Shown: one piece after another, positions 54,090 through 58,860 of the stretch
Position numbering within the stretch: position 1 is the first letter of the stretch
Layout: every line of letters starts with the position of its first letter
Origin: Streptomyces griseus
GTDB lineage: Bacteria; Actinomycetota; Actinomycetes; Streptomycetales; Streptomycetaceae
Assembly (NCBI RefSeq): GCF_001715295.1
Contig: NZ_MDKB01000003.1
Location: forward strand, 1,195,954 to 1,259,953
Reading direction: 5' to 3'
DNA: 64,000 nucleotides
The notes under the pieces: generated by a model
What the model saw: the letters and a program-made list of their open reading frames with translations, nothing else
The model's database searches: none
Told to the model about the DNA's origin: nothing
Program-made: the position numbers and the translations under genes

Positions 54090-54866
54090 TCAGTTCCGGT
54101 TTATTTCGAAAGCAGTCGGAGAAGCTGCGACTACCGCGGCCCGCAGGGAAGCCAGGGCGCCTCGGCCCGCGGACCCCCCGGGACCGGCGGACCCGCCGGT
54201 CCGCCGTGCGCCCACGGCCCCTCGGACCGCCCGGGCCGCGCGCACCGCACGCGCCGCTTCCGTCAGCGACGCCCCCGTCGTCAGCAGGTCGTCGACCAGC
54301 CACACCCTGCCCCCGTCGAGCAGGTGCCGACCCCCCGGCACCACTTCGAGCGCCCCCGCAAGATTCGCCCGTCGCTCCCGGGCACCCAGCCCGGCCTGGT
54401 CGGCCACCACCCGCCGCTGCCTCAGCAGAGCCGGCACGTGGGCCGGCGTGCCGCTCCGCCGCAGCACCGCCGCGGCGGCCAGTGCGATCCTGCGCGTCGG
54501 GTCGTGCCCGCGCGCGGCTGTCGCGCGCCGCGCGGACGGTACGGGTACCAACAGCAGCGGCCCCGCGCCTCCCTCCTCCCCCGCCCCGGCCCGCACCGCG
54601 GCCGCCAGCGCCCCACCGAGCGGCGCGGCCAGCCCCAGGGCACCCCGCTCCTTGTGGGCCAGCAGCATCGCGCGTACCGCGTCCTCGTACGGTGCGACCG
54701 CGTGCACCACCGGAAGCCCCGCGGGCTCGGGTGCGGGCCTCACCCGGCACGGCCGCGCGTCGAGCACCGCGGCGCACACATCGCACAGCTCCGTCCGCGG
54801 CCGGCCGCAACCGCCACAGGCCACGGGCAAGACCAGCGCGGTGATCTCCCGCCACCATGCCTTCAC
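54090..54866 (-). CDS. ComF-family phosphoribosyltransferase
   Basis: 258 residues. Starts with a zinc-ribbon CGGCGRPRTELCDVC (residues about 18-32), then a type I phosphoribosyltransferase domain with the PRPP-binding loop VWLVDDLLTTGASLTEA at about 188-204. A VPVPSARRATAARGHDPTRRIA segment is typical of the ComF family. Role in DNA uptake is proven only for some competent species; in actinomycetes it may be nucleotide salvage. Two tandem DnaA boxes lie 40-60 bases upstream of the ATG. Confidence 0.92.
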   Translation of the reverse strand: MKAWWREITALVLPVACGGCGRPRTELCDVCAAVLDARPCRVRPAPEPAGLPVVHAVAPYEDAVRAMLLAHKERGALGLAAPLGGALAAAVRAGAGEEGGAGPLLLVPVPSARRATAARGHDPTRRIALAAAAVLRRSGTPAHVPALLRQRRVVADQAGLGARERRANLAGALEVVPGGRHLLDGGRVWLVDDLLTTGASLTEAARAVRAARAVRGAVGARRTGGSAGPGGSAGRGALASLRAAVVAASPTAFEINRN

Positions 54867-54905
54867 TACTCCACTGTGCCCGGGTCACGAGAACCGCGCC
54901 GACCC

Positions 54906-54927
54906 TGTGGACAACACCTGTGGACAA
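54906..54927 (-). promoter_or_regulatory. Two tandem perfect DnaA boxes
   Basis: On the minus strand TTGTCCACA, the Streptomyces DnaA-box consensus, occurs at 54914-54906 and 54927-54919. Each lies in an identical 13-bp unit repeated head-to-tail (54905-54917 and 54918-54930). They occupy the lpqB-comF gap. Confidence 0.75.
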
Positions 54928-54983
54928 CACCCGGGCCCGTGGGTGTCCGACGGCTCGTCCACGCGGCAGGCAGGGCGGCGCCC

Positions 54984-56849
54984 TCAGCCCGGGTAGACCA
55001 GCGACGAGCCGTCCTTGAGCACCGTCTGCCAGTTGTCCCCCGGCGACAGCTTCACTATCCCGTCGCCCTCGGTGTCCGCCATCAACGGCAACTGCTCGTC
55101 GTCCGCCGCGGCGACCGCCGTCACCTGGTTCACCCCCGGCAGGACCCCGGAGGAGGACGTGGAACCGTCGGCCTGGACATAGCGCACCTGCTGCACACCG
55201 CCCTCCTCCTTGCCGACCACCACGAGACGGCTCCGGCCCGACCAGGAGACCGCGGTCACCTCCGCCAGCTGGGGCGCGGCCTGGCGCAGGTCCTCCACGG
55301 AAGCCCGCTCGGACGGTCCCGCGCCATGGCGCTCGACCCGGCCGATCTTCAGCGTCGTGTGCCCGTCCTTCGACACCATCAGAGCGATCCGCACCCCGTC
55401 CGCCGACATGCGCAGGGCCTCGATGCGCCCGCCGTCCAGGCCGGGCACCTCGACCTCCTGCGGCTTGCCCTGGCCGTCCACCAGTCGCAGCAGCCTCGGA
55501 CCGGACGGATCACGGTCGGCGACCCACAGATCACCCGTGCCGTCCCAGCTCGGCGCCGACAGCCGGTCCCCGGGCTTCACGGCATGGCTGGTGACGACCG
55601 GCGCGGCCAGCTCGGTCTCCGAGGCCAGCGAGGACACGTAGAGGTACCTCTGGTCCGCCGAGACCGCGGCGGCCAGCTGTTCGTCCCTGGCCACCCCCAC
55701 GGCGCTCATCGCCACCTGCCCGGAACCGAACGGCCCGACCACCGGCTCCGGCTCACCGCTTCCCTTGCTGCTCCCCGGGATCCTCTGGACGCGCCCCTTG
55801 TCGTCGACGAAGTACTGGCTGTCCGGCGCGTCCGAACCGCTGTCCGGCGCGAACTCCTCGGCCTCGTCGGCACCCAGGGAGCACAGCGGGCCGCGCTCGC
55901 CCTGCAGTTCCACCTGGCCCACCCGGGCCGAGGTCAGGTCCCGCAGGGTGAAGAGCACCTGGGCCGCCATCATGCGGCAGGCGCCCGGCCCGGCCTTGTC
56001 GGCCTTCTTGTTGAGCTGCACCTTCAGGATGTTCTGGTCGTCGGGCGCCAGAGCGGTCACATCGCTGCGCAGCGCCGTACCGGCCGGGAAGCGGGAATCG
56101 ACCACCGGCCGCAGCCAGTCCGAAGGCCCCTTCAGCAGCGACCGGACCGTCTGCGTGGCCGTGTCCATCCGCGTGACGGGATCCGTACGGTTGCGGACGT
56201 AGACCGGATCGGCGACCATCGCGGCACCGCCGTCCGCCCTCCCGGCGGCGAAGTAGTACTTGTTCACCGACCGGTACAGCCGCTTGAAGTCGGACTGCCC
56301 CAGCACGAGACCGTCCGGCACGACGTCGATGCGCCACTCCTGCTTGCCGTCCGGCCCCTTCTGCCGCACCAGGTGCAGCGTCTGGGAGTAGTCGGTCGGC
56401 GCGAGAGGCCGGTAGGAACTCTGCGCGTCCACCGCGGCCACCTGCTCGCCCGTCAGCGTGTACGTCGTGTCGGTGGCCTCGCGCTCGTCGTCGCGGAACG
56501 TCGGTCCGTTGCGGTTGGGGGCCTGTGCCAGCACCGTCGTGCCCTCGCTCGGCTTCCAGGTCCTGGCGGCTTCCGTCGTCAGGTACGTGCGCGTCGTCCT
56601 GAAGCCGGGGTCGTCGCTCGTCATCGACTCGAGGAACCCGTCGACGATCTCGATGGGCGCGGCGTCCTCCCTCGGCGGCACGGCGTACACCTGCACCTGG
56701 GAATCACCGGGCTGCGAGGCGCCGACGCCCTTGACGTCACCGGTCACCGGCATCGCGCCGCATCCCGCGAGCACCACGGCGCCGCAGCCGAGCAGCGCGG
56801 ACATCCGCACCGCCCGCCGACGGCCGCCCCGACGGGGATCAGTGTCCAC
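54984..56849 (-). CDS. lpqB: Lipoprotein LpqB
   Basis: 621 residues from the GTG at 56849, with AGGAGG nine bases upstream and an 11-bp overlap with mtrB. Signal peptide with lipobox LAGC (Cys about residue 29), a GerMN-like region and a C-terminal beta-propeller-like part (VEDLRQAAPQLAEVTAVSWSGRSRLVVVG). In actinobacteria LpqB interacts with the sensor kinase MtrB and modulates MtrAB signalling. It is the last gene of a tight mtrA-mtrB-lpqB run. Confidence 0.94.
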   Translation of the reverse strand: MDTDPRRGGRRRAVRMSALLGCGAVVLAGCGAMPVTGDVKGVGASQPGDSQVQVYAVPPREDAAPIEIVDGFLESMTSDDPGFRTTRTYLTTEAARTWKPSEGTTVLAQAPNRNGPTFRDDEREATDTTYTLTGEQVAAVDAQSSYRPLAPTDYSQTLHLVRQKGPDGKQEWRIDVVPDGLVLGQSDFKRLYRSVNKYYFAAGRADGGAAMVADPVYVRNRTDPVTRMDTATQTVRSLLKGPSDWLRPVVDSRFPAGTALRSDVTALAPDDQNILKVQLNKKADKAGPGACRMMAAQVLFTLRDLTSARVGQVELQGERGPLCSLGADEAEEFAPDSGSDAPDSQYFVDDKGRVQRIPGSSKGSGEPEPVVGPFGSGQVAMSAVGVARDEQLAAAVSADQRYLYVSSLASETELAAPVVTSHAVKPGDRLSAPSWDGTGDLWVADRDPSGPRLLRLVDGQGKPQEVEVPGLDGGRIEALRMSADGVRIALMVSKDGHTTLKIGRVERHGAGPSERASVEDLRQAAPQLAEVTAVSWSGRSRLVVVGKEEGGVQQVRYVQADGSTSSSGVLPGVNQVTAVAAADDEQLPLMADTEGDGIVKLSPGDNWQTVLKDGSSLVYPG

Positions 56850-58860
56850 GAGTCGTGTCCTCCTGCTCCGGATCATGTGTCTCCGGGGCGGCGCCCGGGC
56901 GCCGCCGCTCCCCCACCGGACGCGCGACGACACGGGCGCCGTTGCCGGGAAGGGCCGCCGGGTCGACGGAGGTCTGCGGCCCGGCGCCCTGTGCCGGAAC
57001 CGGGAGCTGCGAGCGCGCTGCCGAACCGCTCTGGGTCGGCACGGACAGCAGCCGGTGGTCGGCCGGCGCCGGGGCCGCCTCCGCACGCTCACGGTCCTCC
57101 CGGTTGCGCCGCGAATCCTCCGGCTCCAGGGGTATCGGTGACCCGCGCAGCGGCTCGTCGGCGGTACGCGGCAGGGTCAGCCGGAACTGGGAGCCGCCAC
57201 CGGGCTCGCCCCAGGCCTGCAGCCAGCCGCCGTGCAGCCGGGCGTCCTCGACAGCGATCGACAGCCCCAGCCCGGTGCCCCCGGTGGTACGGGCGCGGGC
57301 CGGGTCGGCCCGCCAGAAGCGGTTGAAGACCCGCGTGGCCTCGCCCGGCTTGAGCCCCACACCGTAGTCCCGGACCGCCACGGCCACCGCCCCCTGGGCC
57401 ACGCCCATACGGACGACGACGTCCCGGCCCTCCCCGTGCTCGACGGCGTTGACGACGAGGTTGCGCAGGACCCGCTCGACCCGGCGCGCGTCGGCTTCCG
57501 CGATCACGGGCTGCTCGTCACCCACCACCCGGATCAGGGTGCCCTTGCGCTCCGCCAGCGGCTCGGCCCCACCGATGACCCGCCGCACGACCGTGCGCAG
57601 GTCTATCGGCTCGGCCTCGAGGGCAGCGGCGCCGGCGTCGAACCGGCTGATCTCCAGCAGGTCCGACAGCAGCGACTCGAACCGGTCCAGCTGGTCTCCG
57701 AGGAGTTCCGCGGAACGCGCGGTGACCGGGTCGAAGTCGACGCGCGCCTCGTGGATGACATCCGCCGCCATCCGCACCGTGGTCAGCGGGGTGCGCAGCT
57801 CGTGGCTGACGTCCGAGACGAAGCGCCGCTGCATCCGGGAGAGCTCCTCCAGCTGCTGGATCTTCAGCTGGAGGTTCTGCGCCATCTTGTTGAACGCCTC
57901 GCCGAGACGGGCGATGTCGTCCTCGCCGGTGACCTTCATACGCTCCTGGAGCCGGCCTGCCGACAGCCGCTCGGCGATACCCGCCGCCATCCGTACCGGC
58001 GTGACCACCTGGCGCACCACGAACCACGCGATGGCGCCGAGCAGCACGACGACGAACAGCCCCGCCGTCGCCAGTGTCGTCGTGACCAGGGTCAGCGACT
58101 TCTCCTCCTGCGTCAGCGGGAAGAGGTAGTACAGCTCGTACGGATTGTGGTCGATGTCGTAGAGCCGCTTGCCCACGACGAGACCCGGCTGCGGATCCTT
58201 CCCGTAGGAGTAGCGGATCAGGGAGTACGTCTGGAACGCCCCGGGCCCCTGGCCCACCGCCTCCCGCAGGCGCTGCGGGACGCTGGAGGCCTCCACACTG
58301 CCCGAGCCGCGGGGTGCGCGGCTGGTGGCGCTCTGCCCCACGGAGTCGGCGCTGAGGGCCACCACGTTGAACGCGTTCGTGCCGCCGCTGGCGAGCTGGT
58401 CGACCAGCTCGGTGCGCCAGGAGGTGCTGGCCATGCCGTCGGCGCCCTCCTCGCCCTGGTCACCCGGGGTCAGCGGCGCGTTGGCGTTCGCCTGAGCGGC
58501 CGCGAAGCCACCGGCCGCCTGCATCTGGGCCGCCCTGCCCTTCGCGTCGAGCAGGCCGTTCCTGACCTGCCCGATCACGACGAAGCCCAGCAGCAGTACC
58601 ACGCCGATCGACATCAGGAGAGTGCCGGCCACGACGCGCAGCTGGAGGTTGCGGCGCCACAGCCGAGCAGCGGGCAGCAGCGGGCGGCGGATCCACCGCA
58701 TCAGCAGCCGGGGCACAGGACCGCCGGGCGACCCGTTGCCGAACAACCGGCCGCCCGTCAGCCACCGGCGGAGCCTGGAGGCCCTCCGTGCCGGGCCGGC
58801 AGCCCGCTCCGTACGGACTCCCGGCCCCCCGGGTTTCGGAGCAGCGCTGCCCAGGGTCAT
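56839..58860 (-). CDS. mtrB: Sensor histidine kinase MtrB
   Basis: 673 residues from the ATG at 58860, two bases after the mtrA stop; an in-frame GTG at 58890 inside mtrA is the alternative. Two membrane helices flank an extracytoplasmic sensor domain of about 200 residues; HAMP follows, then HisKA with the phosphorylated His in VSDVSHELRTPLTTV and HATPase_c motifs (VVNAVEHGEG, GGTGLGLSI). The N-terminal region before the first helix is long and basic. The C-terminal tail past the kinase domain is Pro/Arg-rich and about 90 residues long. It phosphorylates MtrA. Confidence 0.95.
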   Translation of the reverse strand: MTLGSAAPKPGGPGVRTERAAGPARRASRLRRWLTGGRLFGNGSPGGPVPRLLMRWIRRPLLPAARLWRRNLQLRVVAGTLLMSIGVVLLLGFVVIGQVRNGLLDAKGRAAQMQAAGGFAAAQANANAPLTPGDQGEEGADGMASTSWRTELVDQLASGGTNAFNVVALSADSVGQSATSRAPRGSGSVEASSVPQRLREAVGQGPGAFQTYSLIRYSYGKDPQPGLVVGKRLYDIDHNPYELYYLFPLTQEEKSLTLVTTTLATAGLFVVVLLGAIAWFVVRQVVTPVRMAAGIAERLSAGRLQERMKVTGEDDIARLGEAFNKMAQNLQLKIQQLEELSRMQRRFVSDVSHELRTPLTTVRMAADVIHEARVDFDPVTARSAELLGDQLDRFESLLSDLLEISRFDAGAAALEAEPIDLRTVVRRVIGGAEPLAERKGTLIRVVGDEQPVIAEADARRVERVLRNLVVNAVEHGEGRDVVVRMGVAQGAVAVAVRDYGVGLKPGEATRVFNRFWRADPARARTTGGTGLGLSIAVEDARLHGGWLQAWGEPGGGSQFRLTLPRTADEPLRGSPIPLEPEDSRRNREDRERAEAAPAPADHRLLSVPTQSGSAARSQLPVPAQGAGPQTSVDPAALPGNGARVVARPVGERRRPGAAPETHDPEQEDTTRGH

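Follow-up and report, generated by a model that had tools for sequence, protein, structure and literature searches.

A conserved DnaA box at a fixed distance from the predicted -10 element of comF in Streptomyces

The stretch of DNA analysed here (the window, 64,000 bases) carries comF and lpqB on its minus strand, and the gap between the two genes holds a tandem 13-bp repeat with two DnaA boxes. The features of the locus are as follows.

54090..54866, minus strand: comF; GTG start, ComF family, with zinc-finger cysteines and a phosphoribosyltransferase domain

54873..54878, minus strand: -10-like CACAGT, with 6 nt between it and the comF start codon; the start is predicted to be leaderless

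54897..54902, minus strand: -35 region, degenerate TCGGCG here; the consensus of relatives is GTGGYC (NTGACC-like), columns -24 to -19

54906..54914, minus strand: comF-proximal DnaA box TTGTCCACA, at -48 to -40 relative to the comF start codon; this is the conserved element of the promoter

54919..54927, minus strand: distal DnaA box TTGTCCACA, a lineage-specific addition placed 13 bp upstream of the proximal box

54984..57092, minus strand: lpqB open frame (PF10647 and PF10646), whose stop bounds the gap; its true start is uncertain and lies within the frame

The comF product matches the profiles TIGR00201 (E 2.9e-12) and PF00156 (E 0.00047), in each case below the curated cut-off. On the plus strand, the 13-mer CTGTGGACAACAC is found twice as identical units, 54905-54917 and 54918-54930, within a period-13 run covering 54904-54931, and on the minus strand TTGTCCACA is read twice in the same direction with the same period. 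In minus-strand order, the gap reads TTGTCCACA-GGTG-TTGTCCACA-GGGT, then, some way downstream, CACAGT, 6 nt, and the GTG of comF. The original prediction had described two identical 13-bp units, each with a co-directional perfect box, in the lpqB-comF gap; both the units and their placement are confirmed, the comF start lying 39 nt past the proximal box and lpqB ending at 54984. Its statement that the 64 kb contain no further perfect box also holds: these two copies are the only ones, against 0.12 expected from shuffles of the window. Because two or more copies arise in 2 of 100 shuffles, the window statistics by themselves are suggestive only, and relatives have to decide. One-mismatch forms of TTGTCCACA number five in the window against 5.05 expected, that is, no excess over chance. 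A chance repeat was ruled out by the conservation in relatives described below, and an RNA element was dropped as a candidate, Rfam giving no match up to E 1 within 54700-55100.

The predicted promoter can be compared with motifs of S. coelicolor, namely TANNNT for -10 and NTGACC for -35; a 5'-UTR shorter than 9 nt is counted there as leaderless, which applies to 21.0% of primary starts (PMC4895711). CACAGT keeps the A and the final T of TANNNT, and GTGGYC, which in relatives begins 3 nt downstream of the box and 18 nt upstream of the -10-like hexamer, is a partial match to NTGACC. In the window, the proximal box start is 36 nt from CACAGT, the same as in relatives. The best reading of the comF promoter is a predicted leaderless promoter of sigma-70 type. 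At 54897-54902, the window is the sole row of 51 with C for an otherwise fixed -35 T, and this promoter has two perfect boxes.

Conservation was followed in 55 named Streptomyces loci, picked by LpqB similarity independently of the box, and the window was added to give 56. The box and the -10-like hexamer can be aligned in 55 of these 56 loci, L034 being the exception. The box begins 36 nt ahead of the hexamer in 51 of the 55 rows and 37 nt ahead of it in the other four, so the position of the box relative to the predicted promoter elements is fixed. The hexamer itself reads CACAGT in 48 rows, CACTGT in three, GACAGT in two and CAGAGT in two, and it is followed by the start codon after 6 nt in 53 rows and 7 nt in two. 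These columns are conditioned by the alignment, which required a box-like word and then a -10-like word 36-38 nt from its start. In a scan with free distance (at least 20 nt), 49 of the 56 rows match, every one at 36; the unmatched loci (L030, L034, L054, L064, L067, L078 and L079) include the four 37-nt loci. Upstream of the box, where the columns are unconditioned, the 55 rows show no conservation, and the lpqB stop is separated from the box by as little as 9 nt (L049, L050) and as much as 292 nt (L061). Outside the comF promoter, the 55 named loci yield a single perfect TTNTCCACA in 457,786 bases, both strands counted.

Within the box, the 3' CACA is fixed and variation is tolerated at the third base, which is T in 32, G in 22 and A in one of the 55 rows (one T-to-C change is present in three rows), whereas the tabulated Streptomyces box has G at this position. 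In another set of 57, all four letters are found there (G 29, T 13, A 13, C 2). GGGGTGG downstream of the box is conserved about equally to the box, and part of it is the -35 region.

The arrangement extends through the genus. The composite TCCACAGG-NN-TGG-N19..22-CANAGT is present in 121 of 199 Streptomyces genomes, with one listed place in each, while the control matches 6 genomes; the genome of the window is absent from the 121 because its -35 region differs. Among 30 composite loci that were read, 29 lead to a ComF zinc-finger start, with CxxC...CxxC, and for the remaining one, L121, reading had begun at an early GTG; TCCACAGG is preceded by TTN in 29 loci and by CTT in one. Seventy-seven composite-negative genomes were searched with ComF, of which 74 match, and 70 upstream regions were read. 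These contain a perfect TTNTCCACA in 57 cases, a one-mismatch form in four and none in nine, the nine including L201, whose comF start was not located, and L181, with a two-mismatch form. With L201 set aside, 8 of the 199 genomes have lost the box or keep a degenerate form (L164, L165, L167, L171, L172, L175, L176 and L181), and no statement is made for eight (seven unread and L201). Several of the eight box-less genomes retain the -10-like sequence, and the eight can serve as natural controls for box function. Six of them are smaller than 7 Mb. In the 69 regions that remain without L201, 86 boxes with at most one mismatch lie on the coding strand versus none on the opposite strand.

The second box behaves differently. 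Within 40 nt, 42 of the 55 aligned promoters have one box and 13 have two or more. In an lpqB tree, 10 of the 13 multi-box loci fall in one clade of 11 that includes the window (support 99/97), and the other three are isolated outside it; the tree needs five changes for the second box, and the starred branches force at least three. The tandem character is, judged from this tree, a lineage-specific addition. Second boxes in the 69 regions (at most one mismatch) are co-oriented with comF, and neighbouring boxes are spaced by 13 bp in one case, 14 bp in eight, 17 bp in two and 18 bp in eight, with single cases of 19, 20, 23, 24, 34 and 42 bp. Conservation in the genus thus applies to the proximal box and its distance to the -10 element, and not to the second box; loss in close relatives, which the original prediction named as speaking against it, is seen for the upstream box and, in 8 of the 199 sampled Streptomyces, for the proximal one. 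The exact pair of perfect boxes with a 13-bp period is found in 10 of 392 genus genomes (reversed control, none), at comF in three (L001, which is the window, L086 and L090) and elsewhere in seven. In three other Streptomyces, L085, L091 and L092, such a pair lies just upstream of a gene for a RecD2-type helicase, assigned by family search in L085 and by similar protein sequence in L091 and L092.

As to the identity of the box, TTGTCCACA is tabulated as a high-affinity DnaA box of S. coelicolor and M. tuberculosis, and TTATCCACA as that of E. coli and others (PMC4285127). Both comF boxes are exact matches to the tabulated TTGTCCACA/TTNTCCACA type. The boxes of Streptomyces oriC belong to the same 9-mer family, with TTGTCCACA as the tabulated high-affinity form (PMC4285127), but oriC is an array of 19 boxes (PMC3411110), compared with one or two in the comF promoter. 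In the 6.87-Mb genome of the window, perfect TTGTCCACA occurs 27 times versus 17 for the reversed control pattern, and the wider pattern TTNTCCACAGGNNTGG with one mismatch occurs in 10 places versus two for its control, the comF boxes being two of the 10. TTNTCCACAG is found 41 times versus nine for the reversed control, and 17 of the 41 lie inside 170 kb around oriC, where 1.0 is expected. The origin itself is located between dnaA and dnaN on contig C9, near 1.689 Mb. Away from oriC's contig, at G000:C8:98177-98198 (L347, L348), there is an inverted TTATCCACAG pair, 12 bp apart. In another locus (L356), TTGTCCACAG lies a few bases from the open-frame start of a glycerol-3-phosphate dehydrogenase-like gene; glpD of E. 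coli is DnaA-responsive.

Three-box clusters of TTNTCCACAG are found at G000:C9:1608626-1608920, 1653300-1653388 and 1734940-1735130 (L381, L382 and L370-L372), within about 81 kb of oriC. They adjoin pheA-serS, dnaB and crgA, and presumably correspond to D78, H24 and H69 of S. coelicolor. Such clusters resemble the comF element in being intergenic and in offering good boxes outside oriC. However, they are near oriC and their counterparts here have mixed orientations, whereas the comF element stands at a set distance from a -10 sequence and usually consists of a single box. The comparison bears on the suggestion, made by the original prediction, that the comF boxes titrate DnaA, in other words that they form a store which lowers free DnaA and delays initiation, like the clusters near oriC in S. 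coelicolor. It is true that the window offers two perfect boxes, the genome's sole same-direction perfect TTGTCCACA pair with a gap of 0-60 bp, and that the dnaA-dnaN stretch, with a dozen one-mismatch boxes, has no perfect TTGTCCACA. Several clustered boxes kept in relatives, as for D78, are nevertheless not what is found, since two or more boxes are present in 13 of the 55 promoters; a single box is the rule, its orientation is that of comF in all 69 regions scanned, and the comF boxes lie on contig C10, not on that of oriC and of the serS, dnaB and crgA clusters. A storage site would, moreover, need no fixed distance from the comF -10 element. The suggestion is therefore not supported; a storage role is very improbable as the explanation of the element, and titration is secondary at most.

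The main rival to DnaA as the binding protein is the response regulator MtrA, which is encoded next to the comF locus; the element would then be an MtrA site controlling comF, and its likeness to a DnaA box incidental. According to PMC13189361, the MtrA half-site is 7 bp long with T1 and C4 alone fixed, usually repeated with 5-6 nt between the copies, binding to one half-site alone is possible in SPR, and in several promoters the sites lie between -34 and -55. TNTCCAC within the box fits T1 and C4, and the 13-bp period of the window, being 7+6, fits the repeat. Under a loose rule, a T1/C4 partner is present 12 or 13 bp away on either side in 31 of the 55 promoters. On the other hand, it is missing in the remaining 24, and the commonest partner (26 of 55), 12 bp downstream, overlaps the -35 region; at its obligatory C4, C and T are of similar frequency. 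Outside the window's lineage, second boxes most often have a period of 14 or 18 bp. Moreover, conservation covers the whole TTNTCCACAG, much more than a T..C motif and a far longer word than in the MtrA sites described, and this sequence does not have the A of the GTnAcC-type EMSA consensus (PMC13189361). The main text of two MtrA papers does not mention comF. What was claimed for mtrAB survives as adjacency in the window, to which the tie through MtrA to replication also amounts, and the half-site fit keeps MtrA under consideration. Since MtrA leaves the conservation of the whole TTNTCCACAG unexplained, we regard this alternative as unlikely.

The box is not restricted to Streptomyces. Among 118 genomes of the class, ComF was found in 114, eight of them Streptomyces, and for 98 of the 106 others 320 bp upstream of comF were read. 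Coding-strand TTNTCCACA with at most one mismatch is present in 44 of the 98 loci, compared with a mean of 4.7 and a maximum of 10 in 200 shuffles; 54 loci are without it. The opposite strand gives 9 of 98 (shuffle mean 3.9, maximum 10), and permuted patterns on the coding strand give 3-12 of 98. These 54 speak against universality, and so do other families of the same order, where one of 13 loci has the box (L243) and 12 do not. That the class-wide box is a generic property of gaps was ruled out by two controls. Upstream of the next gene, hpf, the box is found in none of 22 non-Streptomyces loci and in one of eight Streptomyces, these being the best 30 of 107 loci (107 of 118 genomes matched), with a stretch that partly overlaps the comF end. 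In 23 class loci with flanks, 16 one-mismatch boxes lie in 7.6 kb upstream of comF versus eight in about 76 kb elsewhere.

These data also touch a further alternative, that the block is an operator for another regulator of comF which by coincidence reads TTNTCCACAGGGGTGG. GGGGTGG after the box, about as conserved as the box, could belong to the site of such a protein. Against it, TCCACAG recurs in other families, in 42 of 98 loci on the coding strand versus five on the other strand, the same 10-mer is concentrated around oriC, and the variation of the box (any of the four letters in third position, T or C at the first two) is the pattern of DnaA boxes. A coincidence of this kind seems quite implausible.

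DnaA as the binding protein is supported by this variation together with the concentration of TTNTCCACAG around oriC. From the position and conservation of the sequence, we consider it probable that the proximal box is a DnaA site in the comF core promoter through which DnaA exerts direct control of comF, more likely as an activator, in support of the original prediction that DnaA regulates comF. DnaA would bind the proximal box at -48 to -40, 3 nt from a poor -35 region, and would contact RNA polymerase; polymerase-contacting activators often bind at such positions near -35. Activation is favoured over repression because the spacing is rigid and the -35 region is poor; repression by occlusion is possible but less likely. 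Set against the DnaA reading are the box-less loci of the genus, the order and the class, the T that outnumbers G at the third base, the conserved GGGGTGG, the absence of perfect boxes near comEC and dprA, the degenerate -35 region of the window and the fit of the loose MtrA motif. Second boxes upstream, as in the window, may strengthen DnaA binding or make it cooperative, and the amount of ComF would track free DnaA and, with it, how far replication initiation has come. DnaA acts on some promoters: those of nrdAB, glpD, dnaA and mioC in E. coli are similar in having a DnaA box beside a sigma-70-type promoter. The present case differs in its target, comF, in an arrangement preserved throughout a genus and in a co-oriented box that recurs across a class. 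Among the papers listed by the literature searches (titles and abstract openings), neither a link between DnaA and Streptomyces comF nor a DnaA-controlled promoter conserved like this in Actinomycetes was found; SCO3010 in a passage on ABC transporters (PMC3123327) looks like a slip for SCO3110.

A motif common to competence genes was considered and rejected on comEC and dprA of the window's genome: within 1.5 kb of their family matches, neither gene has a perfect box. The nearest perfect TTNTCCACAG is about 13.5 kb from comEC and about 3.4 kb from dprA, and one-mismatch scans of these loci gave one match in L383 and none in L384; the scans covered 1.5 kb on each side of the family match, and an operon promoter possibly lies outside.

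To our knowledge, natural competence is not established in Streptomyces, and we know of no role described for ComF in this genus. In H. pylori, ComFC associates with the membrane, shows affinity for single-stranded DNA and depends on both its zinc finger and its phosphoribosyltransferase domain (PMC9005727). By analogy, Streptomyces ComF may handle single-stranded DNA as ComFC does. We tentatively put forward, as a possibility that may well turn out otherwise, that ComF is an ancestral member of the DnaA regulon in the class Actinomycetes, whose promoter responds to how much DnaA is present or to its ATP state. The fixed geometry makes control of comF testable by one promoter mutation. If the idea is true, production of a likely single-stranded-DNA protein would be coupled to replication initiation or to stress on it. 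An initiator site as the most conserved feature of the promoter suggests that ComF serves the cell's own DNA, in replication or repair, instead of, or besides, DNA uptake.
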